64,000 nt of DNA from Chitinophagales bacterium (GTDB lineage: Bacteria; Bacteroidota; Bacteroidia; Chitinophagales; Saprospiraceae), in contig JAKSDI010000049.1 of the NCBI GenBank assembly GCA_022360175.1, positions 1 to 64,000 on the forward strand. The letters run 5' to 3'. Shown piece after piece: positions 11,177 through 34,630 of the stretch (the stretch's first letter is position 1; every line of letters starts with the position of its first letter). The notes beneath the pieces were generated by a model that did no database searches, was not told the origin of the DNA, and saw nothing but the letters and a program-made list of their open reading frames with translations. Position numbers and translations under genes: made by a program.

Positions 11177-14100
11177 TGCTAGAAAGAATATTAAATCAGA
11201 AAGCGCTGCTAAATACCTTATTAGTAGCCGTGGTTATTGGAGGGATTTTTGCTTACCAGAGCATTGGTAAGCTGGAAGATGCCGAAATCCCCATTAAGTC
11301 GGCAGTTGTGATGACCTTATATCCCGGAGCAACTGCACACGAAGTAGAATTGGAAGTAACTGAAGTACTGGAGAAAGCCATTCAGAAACTTGAGAACATT
11401 GATAATATTGAATCACGTTCTTTACCTGGATTTTCTCAAATCACCATCAATGTTGAACCGAGTGTCCTTACTAAGGAGATGCCCCAGTTGTGGGATCACT
11501 TAAGACGGAAAGTAGATGCTGCCAAGTCCAGTTTGCCCCAGGGGGCTTACGAGCCCATTGTAAACGATGACTTTGGGGATGTATATGGAATTTTTGTTGC
11601 CGTCACTGGTGAAGGATATACTTATAGTGAGCTGTACGACTATGTAGAATACCTTAGAAGGGAATTTTTGGAAGTAGATGGCATAAAAAGAGGAGAGCTT
11701 TTTGGTACCCAAACAGAAACCATTGAAATATCTATTTCCAAGGAAAAACTTGCAGGCCTCGATATCAATCCAATGTTGATTATACAGGCGATGAACGATC
11801 AAGGTGAGGTAGTGAACGCGGGAAGCATTGTTTCGGGTAGAGAAAGAATTCGCCTGAATGTAGGGCAAAAGTATTCAAGTATAGAAGAGATCAAAGATGT
11901 CCTTATTCAAACCCCAGGAGGGGGCAATTTCAGATTAGGAGATGTGGCAGAGGTATACCGTTCTTTTTACGAGCCCAAGAATCAGAGTTTGATGTACAAT
12001 GGAGAACGGGCAATCAGCCTGGCAATGTCGATGGAGAGCGGTGTTAATGTGATAAAAATTGGAGAAGCCTTTGATAAAAAACTAGAAGAATTAAAGCAAG
12101 ATCTCCCCCTTGGGATCGAAGTAAACAGTGTTTTCTCTCAGCCAGATCGGGTTGCCTACTCTATCAATGGTTTTATTACCAACCTGATTCAATCTGTGTT
12201 AATCGTAATAGTGGTCATTTTAATTGCAATGGGCATGCGTTCTGGTTTATTGATTGCAAGTGGCCTCTTATTTACTATTCTGGGCACTTTCATTGTAATG
12301 CTCATTATGGATATTGAGCTGCAACGTATATCTCTAGCAGCTATTATAGTAGCCATGGGGATGCTGGTTGATAATGCCATTGTAGTAGCAGAAGGGATCA
12401 TGATGGATTTGCAACGAGGATTAGATCGAAAAAAAGCATTTACCAATTCTGCCAAGCAAACCGCTCTACCTCTATTAGGAGCTACCCTGATTGCCATTTT
12501 AGCTTTCCTCCCGCTTGCAATGTCTCCTGATGCTGCGGGAGAATATTTGAGTTCTTTGTTTACAGTATTAGCCATTTCTTTATTCCTTAGTTGGGTATTT
12601 GCTATGATACAAACACCTTTCATGGCCACCTACTTCTTCCGAAAGGATACTAAGAGAATGAAAAACGGAGCCTCAAAAGACCCTTATGATACTGCTTTTT
12701 ATAGAGGTTTCCAACGCATCGTAAAGTACTCTTTATCACATAAATGGGTTTTCGTAGGCTTGAGTTTTCTGATTTTGGTAGTTGCTTTTTCTGGTTTCAA
12801 GCATGTCAATTTCATGTTTATGCCTACGCTGGATTACAATCAGTTCATCGTTGAATATAAGCTACCACAAGGAGCAGAGATCAGCGCTTTAGAAAAGGAT
12901 ATCAAAGAAATCAGCAACGAAATTGTACAATGGGAGGAAGTAGACCAGGTAACAGCTGCTATTGGTAGTACACCTGCCCGTTATTCTCTTTTAAGGCCAG
13001 TAGCTAATCCGAGTTCATCCTATGGCGAATTGATTATTGATACAGAAGATTATGAAACTTCAGTAGTTGCCGGTAAAAAAATAGTTGATTACATCAGGGA
13101 ACACTATCCACAGGCATCAAGCAGAAAAAGGGTATATGGCCCTATTTTCAGTGAATATGAAATTGAAGTTCAGTTTTCGGGCCCCGACCCTGCAGTATTA
13201 CGAAGGTTAGTAGAAGAGGCAAAAGCCATTATGCGCAATGAACCAACGGCTACAGCAGTAACTGATAACTGGAAAAATGAAATTAAGGTATTAAATCCTC
13301 AATATTCTGTTGAACTGGCTCGCCAGGCGGGAATCACTCGCAATAATTTAGCAACTAGTATTGCTGCCGGTACCAATGGGTTGACAGTGGGTGTCATGCA
13401 GGAAGGTAATAGTAGTTTACCAATACAATTTAGCCTGGACGAATCGATTAGTAATAATGTAGAGCAATTGGGCAATCTACCTGTCTGGGGTGCTTATAAT
13501 GCTTCCAGTATTCCATTGGCACAGCTTGTAGATAGTATTGCCCTTAAATGGGAAACCATTGAAGTTTTTCGCTACAATACCGAGCGTGCAATCCGGGCGC
13601 AGTGTGATCCTATGGAAGGCTATTTAACTACTGATGTAGAAGAAAAGCTGAAACCCATGATCAATGCAATCGAAATTCCCGATGGTTATAGTATGGAGTG
13701 GAAAGGCAGTGGCGAATCCAGTGCAGAGTCACAGCAAAACCTCTTTCGCTTCTTGCCTCTAGCACTAGGGTTGATGCTATTAATAGTGATTGCATTATTT
13801 AATAATATCAAGCATGCGATCATCATTTTCTCCATCTTTCCTTTTGCTTTTGTAGGGATCGTACTGGGCTTCCTGACTACAGGTGCAACGCTCACCTTTA
13901 TAGGTATTATTGGTGCTTTAGGTTTGATTGGAATGATGATAAAAAATACGATCGTCTTGCTAGATGAAATCAATCTGAACCTCAGCAAAGGTAGAACCTC
14001 ACTAAGGTCTATCATTATGGCAGCATTATCCAGGCTTCGTCCGGTAGTAATGGCTTCTGCAACTACCATTTTGGGTATGCTCCCTCTACTGTTCGATGTG

Positions 14101-24516: not shown

Positions 24517-25425
24517 ATGGAACCACTTTGGGGAATAGATTTAGGAGGCACCAAAATAGAGGGTGTTGTTATATCACAATTAAACCCTATTAAAGTAATT
24601 GCTCGCTTACGATTGCCTACCGAAAGAGAAAAAGGGTATGAACATGTTATTGCTCAGATAACAAAAGTGGTAGATAACCTAAAACAAGAAACAGGGCTCC
24701 AGCCGAAATGTATAGGAATTGGAACTCCGGGTACACTAGATCCACAGACACAGACTATGAAAAATAGTAATACCACCATTCTCAATGGGAGGTCATTACA
24801 TAGCGATCTGGAAAAAGCACTGGGCATTCCAGTTGCAATGGCCAATGATGCCAACTGCTTTGCGGTAGCAGAAGCCCGGATGGGAGCAGTAGTCCAGGCA
24901 GTCCCGGATGCGAAAGTTGTCTTTGGGGTAATTATGGGAACAGGAGTAGGCGGTGGACTTGTTATCAACGGACAAGTACGCAATGGACAACATGGTATTG
25001 CCGGAGAATGGGGACATAGTTTTCTTGATGAGTCAGGAGGCCCTTGTTATTGTGGCCTTACGGGTTGCATCGAACAAATTATTTCTGGCCCTGCTTTAGA
25101 AAGGTATTATGAAGGGCAAAGTGGTAGTCACCTTTCACTTCGAGATATTTATCAACACCATTTGGATGGTACAGACCCTATAGCTAGTCAAACGATTCAA
25201 CGGCTGATCCATTTCTTTGGTAAAGCAATTGCATCGGTAGTTAATATGCTAGATCCAGACGCTATTGTATTGGGAGGTGGAGTTGGAAATATCGATCTAC
25301 TCTATACCGAAGGCGTAAAAAAAGCAGCCCATTTCAGCTTTAACCCAAGCCTGAATACGGCCTTTTTAAAGCCCGAATTAGGGGATAGTGCCGGGGTATT
25401 TGGTGCCGCTTTATTGTGGGCTTAA
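24517..25425 (+). CDS. ROK-family sugar kinase
   Basis: Cytosolic ATP-dependent hexose or hexosamine kinase of 302 residues. ATP motif DLGGTK is at 8-13. The catalytic base lies in AMANDANCF (D111). Substrate and zinc ligands are in EWGH (164-167) and the zinc knot C177-Y-C179-x4-C184. The layout fits glucokinase, fructokinase or N-acetylglucosamine kinase; the preferred sugar cannot be told. No DNA-binding domain is present, so it is an enzyme and not a ROK repressor. It is divergent from the esterase gene and upstream of the regulator and susCD, which suggests but does not prove a role in sugar use. Confidence 0.92.
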   Translation: MEPLWGIDLGGTKIEGVVISQLNPIKVIARLRLPTEREKGYEHVIAQITKVVDNLKQETGLQPKCIGIGTPGTLDPQTQTMKNSNTTILNGRSLHSDLEKALGIPVAMANDANCFAVAEARMGAVVQAVPDAKVVFGVIMGTGVGGGLVINGQVRNGQHGIAGEWGHSFLDESGGPCYCGLTGCIEQIISGPALERYYEGQSGSHLSLRDIYQHHLDGTDPIASQTIQRLIHFFGKAIASVVNMLDPDAIVLGGGVGNIDLLYTEGVKKAAHFSFNPSLNTAFLKPELGDSAGVFGAALLWA

Positions 25426-25635
25426 AGAGATAAAAAGAAGCATTTTTTGTAGCAGTACAGAAAGTATAAAGTTTGTCAGATTAATCGCAAATGACATATA
25501 CTACTCATGAGGGTAGGTTCATTTGTTCTTTTTTTCACGTTTATTTGTGAAACGACTTTTAAATAATGAAAAGTTGTGTTTGCTTCAAAATGAATGCAAC
25601 TTTCCCCTGTTTTAAACGTCATTATTTTAGGACTG

Positions 25636-25655
25636 CTTAAAAACCAGTTCTTAAT
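25636..25655. promoter_or_regulatory. Candidate operator: imperfect 20-bp palindrome before the NarL-like gene
   Basis: CTTAAAAACCAGTTCTTAAT lies 24 bases before the start of the regulator gene. It matches, at 16 of 20 positions, the perfect 8-4-8 palindrome before susC (26660-26679). The preceding CTG is also shared. Confidence 0.5.
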
Positions 25656-25679
25656 CATACACCCGACTAAACAAAATTT

Positions 25680-26312
25680 ATGATTTCCGTGGCAATCGTT
25701 GATAGCAAACGGGATATCAGAGATGGTATACGTGCGCTATTAGAAGCTACGGAGGACATCACTTGTACTGATGTTTTCGCAACCGCTATGGATGCGCAAC
25801 AAGGTATACTGAAAAATCCTCCGACAGTTGTTCTACTAAATTTTAACTTGCCTGACCAAACAGGTATAGAATTGATTGGCGTGCTCATTAAACAACAACC
25901 CAATCTTAATATCATTGTACATACTGATGTCACTGATAAAGAAGTGATTTTCCAATCTCTTCAAGCAGGGGCTATTGGTTACATTCTTAATCACTGTTTT
26001 CCTTCAGAACTCATAAGGGCTATAAAAGAAGCTGCCCGTGGAGGAGCGCCACTTAGTCCAGAAATTAGTCGACGAGTAGTAGCTACTTTCAGCAAACAAA
26101 ACGATGCCATTGAGGCATTATCTGAACGAGAGCATGATGTGTTGGTGCTATTATGTGAAGGACTTAGTTATAAAGAGATTGGGGAGCGCTTATTTGTTAG
26201 TGCCAATACGGTACGTTTCCATTTAAAAAATATATATAGAAAATTGGGTGTCAAATCCAGATACGAAGCTGTTGCAAAATCTGTTCGTGCTGGCCTGTTG
26301 ATGCTCAGTTAA
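25680..26312 (+). CDS. NarL/LuxR-family regulator with a degenerate receiver domain
   Basis: The 210-residue protein has a receiver-like N-terminal domain and a LuxR-type helix-turn-helix (LSEREHDVLVLLCEG near 143, then the recognition part SANTVRFHLKNIYRKLGV). The receiver fold is recognisable (PP.VVLLNFNLPDQTG, GAIGYILNHCFPSEL), but key residues are changed. The phosphorylated Asp is N54, the conserved Lys is N104 and the second residue of the acidic pair is S9. T82 is kept. It is therefore unlikely to be controlled by Asp phosphorylation. No histidine kinase is adjacent. It precedes susC-susD with a terminator between, and a palindrome is shared by both upstream regions, so it may regulate itself and susCD. 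Confidence 0.9.
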   Translation: MISVAIVDSKRDIRDGIRALLEATEDITCTDVFATAMDAQQGILKNPPTVVLLNFNLPDQTGIELIGVLIKQQPNLNIIVHTDVTDKEVIFQSLQAGAIGYILNHCFPSELIRAIKEAARGGAPLSPEISRRVVATFSKQNDAIEALSEREHDVLVLLCEGLSYKEIGERLFVSANTVRFHLKNIYRKLGVKSRYEAVAKSVRAGLLMLS

Positions 26313-26363
26313 AAAATACACATTTGAGATGTGAGCGTTTTTTTCATACTAATCCAAGTTTCG

Positions 26364-26398
26364 GTTGCCAGATAGTTTTTATCTGGCAACTTTTTTTT
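26364..26398 (+). terminator. Rho-independent terminator after the NarL-like gene
   Basis: GTTGCCAGATA (26364-26374) and TATCTGGCAAC (26380-26390) form a perfect 11-bp stem with loop GTTTT, followed by eight T residues. It ends the regulator transcript and separates it from susCD. Confidence 0.93.
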
Positions 26399-26797
26399 AT
26401 CCCAACTCAAGCCTGAAAACTACCCGAATGGGTGGGAAAAAACATTATTGTCTATATTATATTTGATAAGAGAGTACACTAGTTGAGTTAGAGTGTATTG
26501 AGAACTTATTAACTAGCCTTATTTTCACTAGATCGTTTTTGTGCCCAAATGAAGATCCAGTGGATAACATCATCTCACTACAAATTCTCCGATACACTCA
26601 ATAAATAAGTACTACCACTTCATCATCATCCTTATTTATTACAGCCTACCGTCAAGCTGCTTAAGAAGCAATTCTTAAGTCAGTATTTCTTGTATTCAAA
26701 CTGGCCATTTGTGCCAATATGACCACGTGTATCTACACGGGCTGGTATTGCTATGCCCGGCTGTTATAAACTATTTCTTTAATTAAAACTCAACATT
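26399..26797 (+). promoter_or_regulatory. Upstream control region of susC
   Basis: About 400 bases without an open frame. A TATATTTG -7 element is at 26458-26465, without a matching -33; it would give a long leader. The 20-bp palindrome is at 26660-26679. A short stem (CGTGT/ACACG) lies near 26725-26740. The actual start of susC transcription was not identified. Confidence 0.45.
26660..26679. promoter_or_regulatory. Candidate operator: perfect 8-4-8 palindrome before susC
   Basis: CTTAAGAAGCAATTCTTAAG has perfect 8-bp arms with spacer GCAA. It is 118 bases before the susC start. Its length and symmetry suit a dimeric LuxR-type DNA-binding domain. A related copy is at 25636-25655. Confidence 0.55.
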
Positions 26798-29700
26798 ATG
26801 AAGAAGCTTTTGCTGATTATGCCATTGATCTTATTTACAACAATGGCGTTAATAGCTCAGCGCAGCATTTCAGGTTCGGTAACCGATGAAAAAGGAGAAC
26901 CTTTAATTGGTGCCAGCATCGTTGTAAAAGGTACCGCATCAGGAACAATCACAGACATAGATGGTAATTATCAAATAAACGTCCCCCCTGAAGGCAAATT
27001 TTTAATATTTAGTTATACAGGCTATGAATCTAATGAAATACCTATTAGCGCATCAAACATCATTAACGCTCGCCTTAAGGAATCTTCTACTCTACTCGAT
27101 GAGGTAGTAGTAACTGCTGTAGGGCTTTCAGCCAATAAATCCGATTTAGGATACTCTATCCAGGCTGTTAGAGGGGATGAAGTAAACCGTTCTGGAGAAA
27201 CCAATATGGTTGCCGCCTTAGCAGGTAAAGCAGCTGGAGTGCAGGTAGCCAGTTCGGGCGGAACGGCCGGAGCAGCTGCTCAGATAAGAATACGGGGAAA
27301 TAAAACCGTTATCGGTAGCAATTCGCCTCTTTTTGTAGTGGATGGTGTACCTATAGACAATAGCACCCTCACCACGGCCGATGCCCCAGAAGACCCTGTA
27401 AGTGATCTAGGCTCCGGAGGTGTTAATAACTCCAACCGGGCAATAGATATCAATCCAAACGATATTGCCTCAATGACTATCCTCAAAGGCCCTGCAGCTA
27501 CCGCTCTTTATGGAATACGGGCTGCGAATGGCGCGATTGTTATTAAAACAAAACGTGGGCAAGCAGGCAAACCTCGCATTCAAATTTCTTCCTCTGTATC
27601 ATTGGACCAGGTCAATAAATTGCCTGAAGTTCAGCAGGAATACGCCCAGGGTAATCCAGTAGGTGGTGTGCCTACCTTTCAGGGTCCTATGACAGGTTCT
27701 TTTACTGGTTTCAGCTGGGGCCCTGCCATTTCAAGCTTGCGTTATGCTGATGAAACATCCATGTGGGACAGCAATGGTCTAATAGTTTCAGCCGATGACC
27801 CTAGAGCAACTGGCCGTATGGTGAATGCCTATAATAATGCGGAAGACTTTTTTGAAACAGCTACTACCTTTAATAATTATGTCAGTGTAAGCGGCGGTAC
27901 CGATAAGATCAATTATTATATGTCTGCTGGCAATCTAATGCAAACAGGTATTGTACCTAACACTGATTTTAGCAGGACTTCTTTCAAAGCGACAGTAGGA
28001 GCAAAATTGACCGACCGCTTAAATGCGACTGTTGGTGCCACTTACATCCGCTCAGGTGGGAAAAGAGCCCAAAATGGGTCTAATACATCCGGTGTAATGC
28101 TAGGATTAATGCGCACCACTCCTACTTTTGATAATCGAAATGGTGTCGATCCAGATAGTGATGCCTCAGCTTATCAGTTTGAAGATGGACGACCACGCTC
28201 TTATCGAGGCCTTTTAGGAGACAGAGCTATTTATGATAATCCGTACTGGACCGTTTATAAAAACTACCTGACAGACGAGGTCAATCGCGTTATAGGCTTT
28301 GCACAATTATCTTATGATCTTTTTGATGGATTTACTACTACCGCTCGCCTAGGAGTAGATAATTATAGTGACTTCCGGAAATTTAGAAACGATATAGGAT
28401 CTGGCACTTTACCTGCCGGGCAGATAGTCAACCACAATATCAACAGTACAGATTTAAATGTTGATATACTGGGTACCTATAAAAAGGAATTGTCATCTGG
28501 TATTGGAATCAATGCAACTGTAGGTTGGAACTTCTACGACAAGCAAGTAGAAAACCGTAGAGAAGATGGGCAAGGCCTTGCTTCTCGTGGCTTTTTCAAT
28601 ATGGCAAGTGCCAGTGCTGTAAGTGTAGTAGAGCGCCCTACACATAAGCAATTATATGGTGTATATGGAGATATTAGAATAGATTTCAACAATACTTTCT
28701 TCCTTAACCTGACAGGGCGTAATGACTGGTCTTCTACCCTACCGGAAAGTAATAATTCATTCTTCTATCCTGCGGTAGCAGTAGGTTGGGCATTTACAGA
28801 AACTTTCGGTATCAATCAGGGCTTCTTCTCTTACGGAAAACTTAGAGCTTCTTATGGAAAAGTAGGTAATGATGCTCCTTTTGCCCTCACTACTACTGGT
28901 TTTGCTCAAGCGAGAGTGCGCGATGGATGGACAACACCTAATGGCGTCATTTTCCCTGCACTAGGCGTCAACTCATTCATTCCTGATGCCACTTTAGGAA
29001 ATAATGAGCTTAAACCTGAGTTTACAACTACCACAGAGCTAGGAGTAGACTTACGCTTGCTCAATAATCGAGTAACAGCAGATATCACCGTTTATCAGGC
29101 CTTGTCACAAGATGTTATCAATCTAGTAGATATTTCTCGTGCTAGTGGATTTTTGCAGCGTGCTATCAATACTGGTGAAATCGAAAACCGAGGTATCGAA
29201 GCAGTCCTTAGTGGTCTTGTTTTTGACAATGGCAACTTCAGCTATGAAGTGGGGCTTAATTACAATAAATACGAATCTGTTGTGAATGCAATAGCTCCTG
29301 GCCTAGATGTCATCACTATTGATCCATTCGGTACACAGCGTATACAAGTAGGAGAATCTTACGGCATTTTCTTTGGTACTCGCTTCCTTAGAGATGATCA
29401 GGGCAGAATGGTTATTGACCCTTCTACTGGCATTCCTTTACAAGATCCAGTTAATGGCAAAGTAGGAGATCCAACTCCTGATTTCACTCTAGGTTTCAGA
29501 AACACTTTCAATTATAAAGGTGTAAGCCTTTCTTTCCTATTTGACTGGAAGAAAGGTGGTGATGTCTATAATGGTACATCAGGTGTACTCAACAACTTTG
29601 GAGTTGGTATAGAAACCCTTGATCGAAATGAGTTAGTCGTTTTTGACGGAGTATTAGCCGATGAAAATGGTAACCCAACTGATGTAATCAATACGATGCA

Positions 29701-30028
29701 AGTAGTAAAGGGCGGAACTGATGGAGGTACTAACTTTTACCAAAACTATGGTTTTGTAAACCTTGATGAGCTTACCGTACAAGATGGCAGCTACTTCCGT
29801 TTGCGGGATGTAAATCTAAGCTATACAATACCTTCCAGCAATTTGGGAGGAGTGATCCAATCTGTCGGCATTACACTTTCTGCCCGCAATGTTTTCCTCA
29901 TTACTGATTACACAGGTATTGACCCGGAAACCAACCTTACGGGAGATGCGAGCAACGTATTTAGCTATGACTACTTCAACAATCCTAATACCAGGAGCTA
30001 TGGAGTAAAATTGAGCCTTACGTTGTAA
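26798..30028 (+). CDS. SusC/RagA-family TonB-dependent outer-membrane transporter
   Basis: Large beta-barrel importer of 1076 residues that takes up oligosaccharides or peptides with a SusD lipoprotein, driven by TonB. The signal peptide ends near LIAQ-RS. An N-terminal carboxypeptidase-regulatory-like domain follows (SGSVTDEKGEPLIGASI), then the TonB-box/plug region (LLDEVVVTAVG, PLFVVDGVPIDN, ILKGPAATALYG). The rest is the barrel, ending in the usual aromatic C-terminal strand (SYGVKLSLTL). It is 33 bases from susD. No carbohydrate-active enzyme, sigma or anti-sigma gene is adjacent, so the substrate is unknown. Confidence 0.96.
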   Translation: MKKLLLIMPLILFTTMALIAQRSISGSVTDEKGEPLIGASIVVKGTASGTITDIDGNYQINVPPEGKFLIFSYTGYESNEIPISASNIINARLKESSTLLDEVVVTAVGLSANKSDLGYSIQAVRGDEVNRSGETNMVAALAGKAAGVQVASSGGTAGAAAQIRIRGNKTVIGSNSPLFVVDGVPIDNSTLTTADAPEDPVSDLGSGGVNNSNRAIDINPNDIASMTILKGPAATALYGIRAANGAIVIKTKRGQAGKPRIQISSSVSLDQVNKLPEVQQEYAQGNPVGGVPTFQGPMTGSFTGFSWGPAISSLRYADETSMWDSNGLIVSADDPRATGRMVNAYNNAEDFFETATTFNNYVSVSGGTDKINYYMSAGNLMQTGIVPNTDFSRTSFKATVGAKLTDRLNATVGATYIRSGGKRAQNGSNTSGVMLGLMRTTPTFDNRNGVDPDSDASAYQFEDGRPRSYRGLLGDRAIYDNPYWTVYKNYLTDEVNRVIGFAQLSYDLFDGFTTTARLGVDNYSDFRKFRNDIGSGTLPAGQIVNHNINSTDLNVDILGTYKKELSSGIGINATVGWNFYDKQVENRREDGQGLASRGFFNMASASAVSVVERPTHKQLYGVYGDIRIDFNNTFFLNLTGRNDWSSTLPESNNSFFYPAVAVGWAFTETFGINQGFFSYGKLRASYGKVGNDAPFALTTTGFAQARVRDGWTTPNGVIFPALGVNSFIPDATLGNNELKPEFTTTTELGVDLRLLNNRVTADITVYQALSQDVINLVDISRASGFLQRAINTGEIENRGIEAVLSGLVFDNGNFSYEVGLNYNKYESVVNAIAPGLDVITIDPFGTQRIQVGESYGIFFGTRFLRDDQGRMVIDPSTGIPLQDPVNGKVGDPTPDFTLGFRNTFNYKGVSLSFLFDWKKGGDVYNGTSGVLNNFGVGIETLDRNELVVFDGVLADENGNPTDVINTMQVVKGGTDGGTNFYQNYGFVNLDELTVQDGSYFRLRDVNLSYTIPSSNLGGVIQSVGITLSARNVFLITDYTGIDPETNLTGDASNVFSYDYFNNPNTRSYGVKLSLTL

Positions 30029-30061: not shown

Positions 30062-31441
30062 ATGAAGTTTATCAAAATATTTATATGCTGTTTATTAGCC
30101 TTCATGGCTGCCTCCTGTGAATTTGGAGATACCAATATCAACCCTGCTCTGCCAGAAGATGTCTCCACTCAAGCAATTGTACCAGGAGCTCAAGTAGGTA
30201 TGGCTTTTGCCATAGGTGGTGAAGTAGTTCGTATCAATGGATTGTTTATGCAACAATTTAGAGGTATTAATGCACAGCAATTTGACAATTACAAATACTT
30301 GGTAGATGCGGCTGATATGGATGGCGTTTGGCGACGCATGTATGCCCATGCACTCAACCCTTTAGTAAGTGTACAAAGAAAAGCAGAAGCTGAAAACTCC
30401 AATCATGCTTCCGGCATGGCTAAAGTTTTAATTGCTCATTCAATTGGTACCCTTGCTGATATGTTTGGGGATGTACCTTATACGGATGCATTTAAAGGCC
30501 TTGAAGATAATTTCTTCCCCGTATATGATACGCAAGAAGGCGTCTATGCTAGTGTACAGCTTCTATTAGACGAAGCCATTGCAGAGTTGAGTGGAGATGC
30601 AGGAAGTGGCCCATCACTTGGAGGCGACTTAATTTACAGTGGCTCTAGTGATGCATGGGTACAGGCAGCTAGTGCTTTAAAAGCCAAATATTATTTACAT
30701 ACCTCCAAACTAGATGATCAAGCATATACCAAAGCCCTTGATGCGCTTAATAAAGGTTTAAGTGCTAATGAAGATGATCTGGAATTAATCTTTGGAGAAG
30801 GCCCCAATGAAGCCAATCCTCAATATCAATTCACTCAAGATAGAGGAGGAAATATTGAAATAGATGAATTCTTTTTCAACCTTCTAATAGATAATAACGA
30901 TCCACGTACCCCCGCTTTTCTTACCGCAGATTCAGATGAGCCTACGGGCTTTAGCAAAAACTTTGACTCTGGCACCTACTATTCAACGATCAGTAGCCCT
31001 GTAGTTTTCATGAGTTATGCCGAGAGTAAGTTTATTGAAGCAGAAGCACAATTGATGGGCAATGATGATGTCAGTGCTGCTGAAACGGCTCTCCAGGAAG
31101 CCATTACAGCTTCACTAGCAAAAATCACAGGCACTGTTGATGATGATTTCGTTATGACTCATGGCACATTAAGCAGTCTTCCTGACAAGGAGAGCCAATT
31201 AGAGCAGATTATTACACAAAAATATATTGCCCTTTATTCTCATGGCCTGGAGTGCTGGACTGATTTCAGACGCACTGGTTATCCAGCTATCACGCCTGTA
31301 GAAGGAGGTACCAATACATTTAATATCAATGGGGAAGTCCCTCGACGGCTTCCTTACCCACAGACAGAAATTGACTTGAATAGTAGTAATGTACCTATTA
31401 CATCACCAAATTTCCAGGATAGATTCTGGTGGGATAAGTAA
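30062..31441 (+). CDS. SusD/RagB-like nutrient-binding surface lipoprotein
   Basis: Partner of the SusC transporter: a helical surface lipoprotein that captures the ligand above the barrel. The 459-residue protein has a lipobox (FMAASC, C19). Its central helices carry typical motifs (AKVLIAHSIGTLADMFGDVPY, cited by its ends AKVLIAH and FGDVPY; ALKAKYYLHT), and the C-terminal part ends with PRRLPYPQTEIDLN and FQDRFWWDK, as in the SusD-like_2 group. It is translated from the same transcript as susC. Confidence 0.94.
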   Translation: MKFIKIFICCLLAFMAASCEFGDTNINPALPEDVSTQAIVPGAQVGMAFAIGGEVVRINGLFMQQFRGINAQQFDNYKYLVDAADMDGVWRRMYAHALNPLVSVQRKAEAENSNHASGMAKVLIAHSIGTLADMFGDVPYTDAFKGLEDNFFPVYDTQEGVYASVQLLLDEAIAELSGDAGSGPSLGGDLIYSGSSDAWVQAASALKAKYYLHTSKLDDQAYTKALDALNKGLSANEDDLELIFGEGPNEANPQYQFTQDRGGNIEIDEFFFNLLIDNNDPRTPAFLTADSDEPTGFSKNFDSGTYYSTISSPVVFMSYAESKFIEAEAQLMGNDDVSAAETALQEAITASLAKITGTVDDDFVMTHGTLSSLPDKESQLEQIITQKYIALYSHGLECWTDFRRTGYPAITPVEGGTNTFNINGEVPRRLPYPQTEIDLNSSNVPITSPNFQDRFWWDK

Positions 31442-31513: not shown

Positions 31514-34500
31514 TTACCATCCTGGTATAATATTTAAACCAAAGGTTCCTTTCACTTCTGCTCCCTTTTGTAAAGGAAAAGCATAATAAGGCTCTAGTAT
31601 AAGGGCTCCAAACAAGTTTACTCTCATTGCAATACCTGTACTCACAATTGGTTGTGCTTTGGGGTGTAATACCAATGGATTGCCCAATGGATCTGTACGC
31701 ACTTCTCCATTGGAATAAGTCTGATATACAGGATCTTTAAATTGACCATAATCATACCAGGCAACACCTGCATCTACAAAAAGAGCCAGTTCTGTATATA
31801 AAGCGCTCGATTTAATCAGTGATAGTTTTTCAGGGCCCGTAAATGGTAATCTCACTTCGAGATTGGCCACTCCCATTTTGCTACCAAATAATTCATTGAT
31901 ACTTCTGCCATTTTCACTAAGTAGTGTACTTGCATCAGAGGTATTATAACCGCGAACAAACCAGGAGCTTCCCACAAACATGGGATACAAATCATCGCTC
32001 CCTTGTCCATATCGGCCAGAGTGCATAACACGAGCAGCAATACTAACAGGTTTTAGGAAGAAATACTTACGGTAATCGGCCGTGATTTGGTAAAAATTGA
32101 ATGCTCCAAAATATCTATCTACCCCCAGGCGAAAACGTTGCCCATCCAATGGCCCTACTAATCCAGAAACAGAGTTGTCACCAACAAAAGCAGCACCCAC
32201 AGTCCAGAGATTGAAACCATTGCCACTCTCTATCTTTTCACGGTCCTGCCCTATTTGGCGACCTATAAATGTTCCATCTGTCTCATATATGTTAACATAC
32301 TGGTCTAAACGGGAAGAATACCTTGCATATGAAGCACTACCTTCCAGGCGTAGACTCGAAGAAAATGGGTAGTGAGCAAAAGCAGTCAGCTTATCTTCAA
32401 AAATGCGCCTCACAAAGAATGTATCTGCCACTACAGGAATCGTAACATCCTCTCCTACCTGATAATTTTCAATCCCTGTTCCCCCAAAAGCAAAACTGCG
32501 AAATGGTAAATGAGATAGGGATGCTCCCCAGTTAAACTGTTTTTCACGATTTATATAGGCTATAGCGCCACCAATATCTGTAATTTCACCATTCAGTGCT
32601 ACACTCGTATAAAGCTGGTTGTCACCTAGCATATCCCCAAACAACAGATCAACACCGCCTGCTAATCCTGATTGAGTTCCAAATGTATTATTAGTACCAA
32701 GCCCAACTCCTGCACTTCCACCTACATAGTCTAACTTAAACTGAGGTTTATATGCTTTTAAGGTGGTACTATCTTTTGAAAGATGGGCAGTAGCTGGTAA
32801 TTTATTAAGCTGAGCATCAACCAAAGCACTTGCTTGCTTATTCACCCGAGGCAGAGCAGCAGCCGAAAAATCTACCTCATCAGGATTCACTTCTTTATTT
32901 AGAAAGTCTTCAGGCCGGGCGCGATAAATAGTGTATTTATTATCAGAAAAATGGGTATATACTATGCGATCCCTTCTATTGGCGATACTGATAGCGGGAG
33001 CATATTGGGTAATGCCACTAATCCCTGTAATCACATCTGAAAGTTGATACACTTTGCCTGTGCTTATTTCATATTTATACAGATTGCGTATACCATCCCG
33101 ATTCGATAAAAAGATGATGTTTTGTGCTGTATCCAATACAGGGTTCATATTATTAGCCCCTGGAAATACATCGATATGATCAGTGACTCCACTTGCCAGG
33201 CCTAACTTTGCAAGGTTGAAAACCCATTTGCCATGCGTTCGTCCTCGTTTGCGACTCAACTCATCCGTAGCAAACACTAAATAATTACCATCACCCGACC
33301 AATGAGGGTGCATTTCAGAATATTCATCATCTGTAAGTTGTTTGACCTTTCCGCTATTAATGTTTACTGAATATAAATCGACCTGTCCATTTACCAAACC
33401 CATTACAACAATTTGCTTACCATCAGGAGACCAGCTAGGGTTACTAAAGCCTTGTACTCCTTTTATGGCAAACTCTTTTACTGTTTTTCCCGTAAGGGCT
33501 TCCTTAATAATTAGAATATTGCGCCCTTTACTAAATGCAACGAAAGCAAATTCTCTACTATTGGGCGACCAGGTACCTGCTGATTCGATGTAATTAAAAT
33601 CATCAATATGGCTTCTTTTGCGACTGCTGGCTACTTTTCGAATGACCTCTCCGGTACGAGCATCTGCCAAAAATAAATCGATGGAAAATATTCCTTTTTC
33701 AGAAAGGTAAATCACATGACGTCCATTAGGGCTTAAAACAGGAGCGATGTTAATATCGCCAGAATTATCACCACTCAATAGCTCCTTACCAATTAACTGT
33801 TCCTTCCTTCCTCCTATCATATCACCATAGTGCCTTTTCAAAGCCTGTTGCCATAACTCTGATAAATTCTCCAGGCTCATGCCTAATTCTTTCAGACATG
33901 CCGCTTCCAGGCCGTATTTAGCAGTAGCCACAAAGAAAGGTTCTATGATTTCATCTCCTTTCAAGCCAGTAAGGAATACCCAAAATGCCTGGCCATAACG
34001 GTAGGGAAAATATTTAGGATTATTAAGGTCTTTTAGAGACGGTACCTCATCTCTCAACACCGCATCACGCATCCACATTGCAGTATGGGCATCTACACTT
34101 CCTATAGACAAATACTCCGCCATGCCTTCTACCATCCATAAAGGTAAATTAGCAAGGCTTTGCAGATTCGTAGAATCACCGTTGATAATCATATTGTATT
34201 GAAAGGCATGCACCAGTTCATGTCCAAGTACATGATTGGTTTGTTGGTGAGACATAGCAAAAGGAAGCACTACTCTATTTTTGAATGCTTCTGTAACACC
34301 TCCCGTTCCAACTCCTACTGAACCGGAAATAGCATTGGTTTGCTGAAAATCAGCATGGTCATTATATAGGATGATTGGATTGTGGTTGGCAATAGTATCT
34401 CCCAGTATTTTCTGGTGGAAATGATACCATTGTTCACTCTCTTCAGCATATTCATGCAATCGTTCTGGATTGTCCAGGTAATGATATATTTCAAAATTAG

Positions 34501-34630
34501 GAGTCTCGTATACTTCGAAATCGAAGTCTTCATAATTGACCTTGTTTTTGCCAAAATATTGAGCCTGAAGATTACTACTTATTAATAATACCAAGCCCAG
34601 TGCAACTAAAGCATTTTTGATTTTTCTCAT
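31514..34630 (-). CDS. Three-part outer-membrane protein: zinc-protease-like domain, TolB-type propeller, Omp85-like barrel
   Basis: The 1038-residue protein has a signal peptide (cut near LQA-QYF). Residues about 30-260 are like peptidase MA metalloproteases, with HELVH at 137-141 and the downstream glutamate pair in EGMAEY (E168/E172), so a gluzincin-type zinc site is plausible. Residues about 280-580 hold PD40/TolB-like propeller repeats (SPNGRHVIYLSEKG, SPDGKQIVVMG, SGDGNYLVFATDE). From about 650 to the end is a 16-strand-like surface-antigen (D15/BamA-type) barrel with the FVRGY motif and an aromatic last residue. Whether the protease acts on surface proteins or in barrel maturation is unknown. 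The three domains in one chain are clear; the function is inference. Confidence 0.85.
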   Translation of the reverse strand: MRKIKNALVALGLVLLISSNLQAQYFGKNKVNYEDFDFEVYETPNFEIYHYLDNPERLHEYAEESEQWYHFHQKILGDTIANHNPIILYNDHADFQQTNAISGSVGVGTGGVTEAFKNRVVLPFAMSHQQTNHVLGHELVHAFQYNMIINGDSTNLQSLANLPLWMVEGMAEYLSIGSVDAHTAMWMRDAVLRDEVPSLKDLNNPKYFPYRYGQAFWVFLTGLKGDEIIEPFFVATAKYGLEAACLKELGMSLENLSELWQQALKRHYGDMIGGRKEQLIGKELLSGDNSGDINIAPVLSPNGRHVIYLSEKGIFSIDLFLADARTGEVIRKVASSRKRSHIDDFNYIESAGTWSPNSREFAFVAFSKGRNILIIKEALTGKTVKEFAIKGVQGFSNPSWSPDGKQIVVMGLVNGQVDLYSVNINSGKVKQLTDDEYSEMHPHWSGDGNYLVFATDELSRKRGRTHGKWVFNLAKLGLASGVTDHIDVFPGANNMNPVLDTAQNIIFLSNRDGIRNLYKYEISTGKVYQLSDVITGISGITQYAPAISIANRRDRIVYTHFSDNKYTIYRARPEDFLNKEVNPDEVDFSAAALPRVNKQASALVDAQLNKLPATAHLSKDSTTLKAYKPQFKLDYVGGSAGVGLGTNNTFGTQSGLAGGVDLLFGDMLGDNQLYTSVALNGEITDIGGAIAYINREKQFNWGASLSHLPFRSFAFGGTGIENYQVGEDVTIPVVADTFFVRRIFEDKLTAFAHYPFSSSLRLEGSASYARYSSRLDQYVNIYETDGTFIGRQIGQDREKIESGNGFNLWTVGAAFVGDNSVSGLVGPLDGQRFRLGVDRYFGAFNFYQITADYRKYFFLKPVSIAARVMHSGRYGQGSDDLYPMFVGSSWFVRGYNTSDASTLLSENGRSINELFGSKMGVANLEVRLPFTGPEKLSLIKSSALYTELALFVDAGVAWYDYGQFKDPVYQTYSNGEVRTDPLGNPLVLHPKAQPIVSTGIAMRVNLFGALILEPYYAFPLQKGAEVKGTFGLNIIPGW

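Follow-up and report, generated by a model that had tools for sequence, protein, structure and literature searches.

Environmental members of the Bacteroidota carry large repertoires of susCD genes, and regulation of such genes is known mostly from gut Bacteroides. The susCD regulators known in this phylum are SusR, hybrid two-component systems, and pairs of ECF sigma and anti-sigma factors. Hybrid two-component systems (HTCS) have been described in the role of susCD regulators (PMC11253607). Small RNAs have also been connected to susC: FopS and GibS of Bacteroides thetaiotaomicron, present in several copies per genome, are predicted to base-pair with susC mRNA in the region of its start codon. 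The FopS RNAs measure ~65-70 nt and have canonical sigma-ABfr promoters, and FopS-14 is derived from a 3' UTR (PMC11697453). Aspartate-less atypical response regulators have been defined and reviewed separately (PMC12632262).

We analysed a 64,000-nt stretch of DNA (the window) from a member of the Saprospiraceae whose genome comprises 9.1 Mb in 315 contigs. As with SusR, hybrid two-component or ECF control, a regulator is encoded beside susCD and would probably control it; unlike in those systems, the regulator is a cytoplasmic NarL-type protein with no sensor domain, anti-sigma factor or linked kinase. Its domain order is that of the response regulators NarL, VraR and DevR (DosR), which, unlike the protein described here, keep the phosphoacceptor and have partner kinases. 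With the aspartate-less proteins ChxR, HP1043 and WhiI (PMC12632262) it shares a receiver fold without phosphorylation residues, a retained DNA-binding domain and the lack of a linked kinase. It differs from known aspartate-less regulators in the repeated decay of the receiver within one susCD-linked clade and in its association with a small RNA element, a combination not described in the papers that we found. The putative RNA resembles FopS, compared by description only, in having a seed complementary to a susC translation start and in its several copies per genome, and in the window it would be a 3' UTR product, as is FopS-14; it differs in its place, at or close to an aspartate-less regulator, and in the palindrome-marked promoter that it has in relatives. 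Our literature search found no paper joining Saprospiraceae, small RNA and SusC.

The regulator and its receiver

The genes of the locus are as follows.

25680-26312, + strand: NarL-type regulator with an aspartate-less receiver (S9, N54, N104); ATG open reading frame, Pfam domains, residues read, tree.
26798-30028, + strand: susC, TonB-dependent transporter, predicted regulon member; Pfam, downstream position conserved.
30062-31441, + strand: susD partner lipoprotein (SusD-like_2); Pfam.
31514-34630, - strand: convergent gene for an exported protein of ~1040 aa; neighbours the RNA element in several genomes.

The regulator is 210 aa long and has the layout of NarL/FixJ (LuxR-type) response regulators, with an N-terminal receiver (Response_reg PF00072, residues 4-115, 62 bits against a cut-off of 30.2) and a C-terminal GerE/LuxR helix-turn-helix (HTH; PF00196, residues 146-198, 67.7 bits). 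A profile search with the full-length protein returned VraR (5hev), NarL (1a04) and DevR (3c3w) as the closest solved relatives. Both domains are present in the predicted structure (mean pLDDT 88.5), with the receiver fold mostly above 90. The profile recognises a receiver domain, in which N54 replaces the phosphorylated aspartate. Direct reading of the residues confirmed S9, N54 and N104, all three reported in the initial annotation, and showed that D8 and T82 are kept. The protein is an aspartate-less pseudo-receiver regulator under the definition in PMC12632262. Its nearest paralogs in the same genome retain D54 and K104, and two of those that we examined (L006 and L013) adjoin histidine-kinase-like genes.

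We placed the regulator and its relatives, 68 proteins in all, in a maximum-likelihood tree. There the window protein sits in a 21-member clade (support 100/97) that includes a 16-member Saprospiraceae subclade (support 97/89). The acidic residue at position 9 is gone in all 16 members of the subclade and D54 in 13 of them, with N, E, G, A or L instead; in orthologs with 44-53% identity to the window protein, position 54 is D, E, G, A or L. The remaining five of the 21 clade members retain the phosphorylation residues (one with E9), and loss of D54 was seen in none of the 47 proteins outside the clade. Conservation within the regulator is strongest in the HTH, whose mean identity to orthologs is 64%, versus 38% for the receiver. 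Because the phosphorylation residues decayed throughout the clade while the DNA-binding domain stayed conserved, the sequences support the earlier proposal that the regulator is phosphorylation-independent. As to the state of position 54 in orthologues, also raised at that time, Asp54 is lost in most of the subclade, as counted above, and retained in some orthologues. The Asp54-bearing orthologues do not refute phosphorylation independence, since they are mostly basal proteins with intact receivers or have lost other phosphorylation residues.

A susC gene lies downstream of the regulator on the same strand in loci L056-L060, L074 and L077, and in the short loci L026-L029 and L045; susD usually accompanies it where the ortholog locus is of sufficient length. 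This retention of the regulator-susCD order in many relatives bears out the tie between the two that was first drawn from the window alone.

Predicted operators and promoters

Upstream of the regulator and of susC we predict the following elements.

25500-25517, + strand: operator ACTACTCATGAGGGTAGG before the regulator; motif and promoter spacing common to orthologs, 0 of 3000 shuffles as good.
25540-25547, + strand: -7 box TTTATTTG of the regulator promoter, 29 bp from the GGG of the site.
25660-25672, + strand: leader motif CACCCGACTAAAC just before the start codon, common to most orthologs; ortholog comparison.
26419-26436, + strand: operator ACTACCCGAATGGGTGGG before susC; motif, promoter spacing and shuffles.
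26458-26465, + strand: -7 box TATATTTG of the susC promoter, 28 bp from the GGG of the site.

The operators follow a 7-4-7 palindrome, ACTACCC-N4-GGGTAGT, other than the one named in the initial annotation, in which the GGG is 28-30 bp from a TAnnTTTG-like Bacteroidetes promoter box. Site and box occur twice in the window and also in L054-L060, L062-L065, L067, L068, L071, L074 and L077; the site was not found in L061 or L066. An equally good site with box arose in 0 of 3000 shuffles of either window region, for a motif found by eye on the same loci rather than blind. We then searched 199 genomes of the family for the composite of site and box, allowing at most two mismatches, and obtained 21 matches in 15 genomes, a number not above that of a reversed-pattern control in the same 199 genomes. 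For twelve of the 21, a NarL-type regulator gene lies no more than 1.5 kb away, and a further match precedes a locus consisting of the RNA element and susC. We rejected a wide regulon in the window's own genome: most other sites there (at most two mismatches) have no promoter box at the appropriate distance.

Read most simply, the ACTACCC palindrome is the site that NarL-type proteins of this branch are predicted to bind; it is in an activator position and would have been kept after phosphorylation was lost. An intact-receiver NarL-type protein, or a heterodimer, might instead bind it, with the aspartate-less protein merely modulating. Two such sites flank a related regulator with an intact receiver in one genome (G016), and atypical regulators that form heterodimers are known, WhiI/BldM among them (PMC12632262). 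We nevertheless regard a different binder as unlikely, given that the site tracks the aspartate-less clade and precedes that clade's own genes, and that the HTH is what these proteins have best conserved. The earlier suggestion that the protein autoregulates and controls susCD is supported through the ACTACCC palindromes near both promoters, and not through the palindrome then named.

A CACCCGACTAA-like motif lies a few to ~20 nt before the regulator start codon in L054-L057, L060, L063, L066, L068, L074 and L077. It may be a signal in the leader RNA; downstream of the regulator, its reverse complement did not turn up consistently.

The predicted RNA element and the distal susC start

Between the regulator and susC lies a predicted antisense RNA element that the initial annotation missed.

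26324-26399, + strand: predicted small RNA module within the 3' UTR of the regulator; alignment, compensated hairpin pairs, covariance model (75.7 bits).
26337-26354, + strand: seed core of the module; alignment.
26364-26390, + strand: hairpin of the module; alignment.
26391-26398, + strand: T-run of the module; alignment.

The element begins 11 nt past the regulator stop codon, and its consensus is GGAACTATTGAGAGTTTTTTTCATACTAATCC, then GTTGCC...GGCAAC, then the T-run. Compensatory changes occur in five of the ten hairpin pairs, and the most conserved portion is the stretch before the hairpin. A covariance model found the element, often with no regulator nearby, in 29 of the 199 genomes of the family; across 395 genomes of the class, covariance model R1 matched only in the window's own genome. 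A permissive-threshold Rfam search of 25300-26900 gave chance-level matches only, none credible, and we rejected a known RNA family on this result. We also rejected, as the main reading, the element as a minus-strand relic of a susC start, since both the hairpin with its T-run and the ACTACCC/TAnnTTTG promoters are oriented with the plus strand and compensatory changes occur in the hairpin.

In L054, L060 and L062-L065 an ACTACCC promoter lies directly upstream of the element; RNAs of ~125-195 nt are therefore predicted in these relatives, and those of L060 and L063 fold with the seed region between a hairpin at the 5' end and a terminator hairpin at the 3' end. In the window, no such promoter was found between the regulator stop codon and the seed, and at L058 the element is absent where regulator, site and susC are present. 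This lack of a separate promoter, the position just past the stop codon and the strong hairpin with its T-run are all as expected if the element were only the terminator of the regulator gene, its seed-like part a remnant with no role in trans. We think that improbable: it is the stretch before the hairpin that is most conserved and that is antisense to a susC start, relatives supply the element with its own promoter, and stand-alone copies occur.

The convergent exported-protein gene adjoins the element with or without the regulator and susCD (the window; L054 6204-9284; L293; L294). The convergent gene that follows susCD in the window comes directly after the regulator and element in Flavilitoribacter nigricans (L054; 60% identity), and in G137 and G037 it stands beside element copies with no regulator nearby. 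Because the convergent gene adjoins the element without susCD in the former and without the regulator in the latter two, the element appears, from gene order, to have been present here before the susCD pair and perhaps before the regulator.

Several other arrangements were seen. G124 encodes a further aspartate-less NarL-type regulator (G9, F54; L291 1245-1880) with an RNA element shortly downstream (~1927). This protein is placed on a long branch outside the clade, where it probably belongs, and the pair is possibly a second, independent association. G106 (L254/L292, contig C52) has an ACTACCC promoter, the RNA element and susC with no regulator gene nearby; a regulator ortholog with an intact receiver is on another contig. 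A second class of stand-alone element copies has the seed GCAGAGTTTTTTCATACTAGTCC and its own terminator hairpin (L142/L236, on contig C122 of the window's own genome at 12413-12482, minus strand; L180, L198, L201 and L202). At L126, L151, L163, L167, L178 and L197, terminator hairpins are followed by TTTTTTTCATACTAATCC; read on the opposite strand, these loci resemble a susC-type start followed by a hairpin, and could be a decoy for the small RNA.

A distal susC, on contig C265, has a start codon to which the seed in the window is antisense. The exact 16-nt start-codon core, GATTAGTATGAAAAAA, is confined in that genome to the element and the start of this susC, and the same pair of element and susC start is found in most ortholog genomes. 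The window's own pair scores -27.5 kcal/mol (trimmed duplex), weaker than some relatives' pairs, and ranks first among 195 start regions scored in that genome, a set that covers part of its susC starts; the pair of F. nigricans is nearly continuous (-52.6 kcal/mol, trimmed duplex). We rejected the adjacent susC as the element's target (-18.2 kcal/mol versus -34.3 kcal/mol for the distal susC), its value being equal to the shuffle mean.

The target susC genes form non-orthologous groups with about 32% amino-acid identity between groups, no higher than that of arbitrary susC paralogs. Since target genes of different lineages are so dissimilar, we discarded simple descent of this start sequence along a single orthologous susC. 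From -7 to +19 (~26 nt), the DNA of the target genes is 91-95% identical, versus 25-70% in flanking blocks, and the codons for residues 5 and 6 are identical in nearly all of them, so that identity reaches synonymous positions. Bases beside the core change in step between element and target: AATC-CA pairs with TG-GATT in L054 and L062-L064, and AATC-TG with CA-GATT in L056 and L057. The pair from the window's own genome has no match at the bases beside the core. Gene conversion of susC start regions is a possible source of the shared sequence. A common translation-initiation sequence, spread by recombination and complementary to the element without regulatory meaning, would also account for the other genes that begin with GATTAGTATGAAAAAA (L154, L160 and L183) and for the terminator-like copies of the complement. 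We give this little credence, because the identity extends to codons 5 and 6, synonymous positions included, and because, in two lineages, element and target show matching changes beside the core.

Leader palindromes and the proposed circuit

The palindrome first named before susC, and its second copy, are at the following positions, with no strand assigned.

26660-26679: perfect 8-4-8 palindrome CTTAAGAAGCAATTCTTAAG in the predicted susC leader; sequence read, not found in ortholog loci.
25636-25655: imperfect second copy CTTAAAAACCAGTTCTTAAT, matching at 16 of 20 positions, in the predicted regulator leader.

The perfect palindrome and its recurrence at 16 of 20 positions before the regulator gene are both as the initial annotation gave them. 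When the sequence upstream of the regulator was shuffled 1000 times (first-order), matches of at least 16/20 arose at a frequency of 0.001, conditional on a palindrome picked by eye, and the window contains six perfect 8-4-8 palindromes. A genome scan for CTTAANAANNNNTTNTTAAG with at most two mismatches gave 97 sites versus 190 for the reversed control; the palindrome is rarer, not enriched. It was found in none of the seven ortholog loci scanned, and ACTACCC-N4-GGGTAGT precedes most ortholog promoters instead. Because both copies lie downstream of the predicted promoters, they would sit in 5' leaders; in RNA, the susC-leader copy would form a stem of 8 bp capped by a GCAA loop. The CTTAAGAA palindrome is thus probably not the operator, and autoregulation and susCD control by binding to CTTAAGAA-N4-TTCTTAAG is very improbable, despite the two copies and their rarity in shuffles, given its absence from the ortholog loci scanned, the lack of enrichment, the position of its copies and the conservation of another palindrome.

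We propose that the regulator is a NarL-type activator whose activity would be set by its own level of synthesis or by some other input, perhaps a ligand or a partner, and not by a kinase. A dimer would bind ACTACCC-N4-GGGTAGT just upstream of TAnnTTTG promoters, activating its own gene in positive feedback together with the adjacent susCD. The regulator transcript would end in the small RNA module of seed and terminator hairpin, as a 3' UTR product in the window; in relatives, a dedicated transcript from the element's own ACTACCC promoter would carry the module. The seed would pair around the start codon of the distal susC mRNA. Translation of that mRNA should then be blocked, so that one susCD would be switched on and another off. 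The loss of phosphorylation residues, the linkage to susCD, the sites at fixed spacing, the compensated hairpin and the complementarity to a susC start are read directly in the DNA; we infer that the regulator binds and activates, that a stable RNA exists and represses, and that there is no kinase input. Against the circuit stand the missing separate promoter in the window, with the terminator-only role that this would allow; the own pair's weaker energy than that of some relatives; the composite sites, no more numerous than reversed-pattern matches; the many element copies unlinked to a regulator; and the loci lacking the element (L058) or the site (L061 and L066). Weighing these points, we consider the whole explanation, a kinase-free activator of itself and susCD coupled to an antisense RNA against a distal susC, reasonably likely.

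It is moderately likely that the locus represents an undescribed module of the Saprospiraceae, in which a self-activating aspartate-less NarL-type regulator controls susCD and a FopS-like antisense small RNA, the RNA belonging to a new family that is partly independent of the regulator. The locus suggests that control of susC by small RNAs directed at the start codon exists outside the Bacteroidaceae. Repeated receiver decay in this clade comes together with a predicted operator, so that the way in which aspartate-less regulators are switched becomes testable on a concrete example. The logic predicted for this locus is other than that of the susCD regulators known so far: a kinase-free feedback regulator and an antisense RNA would swap one transporter for another. 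If so, expression of one outer-membrane transporter would be coupled to the silencing of another.
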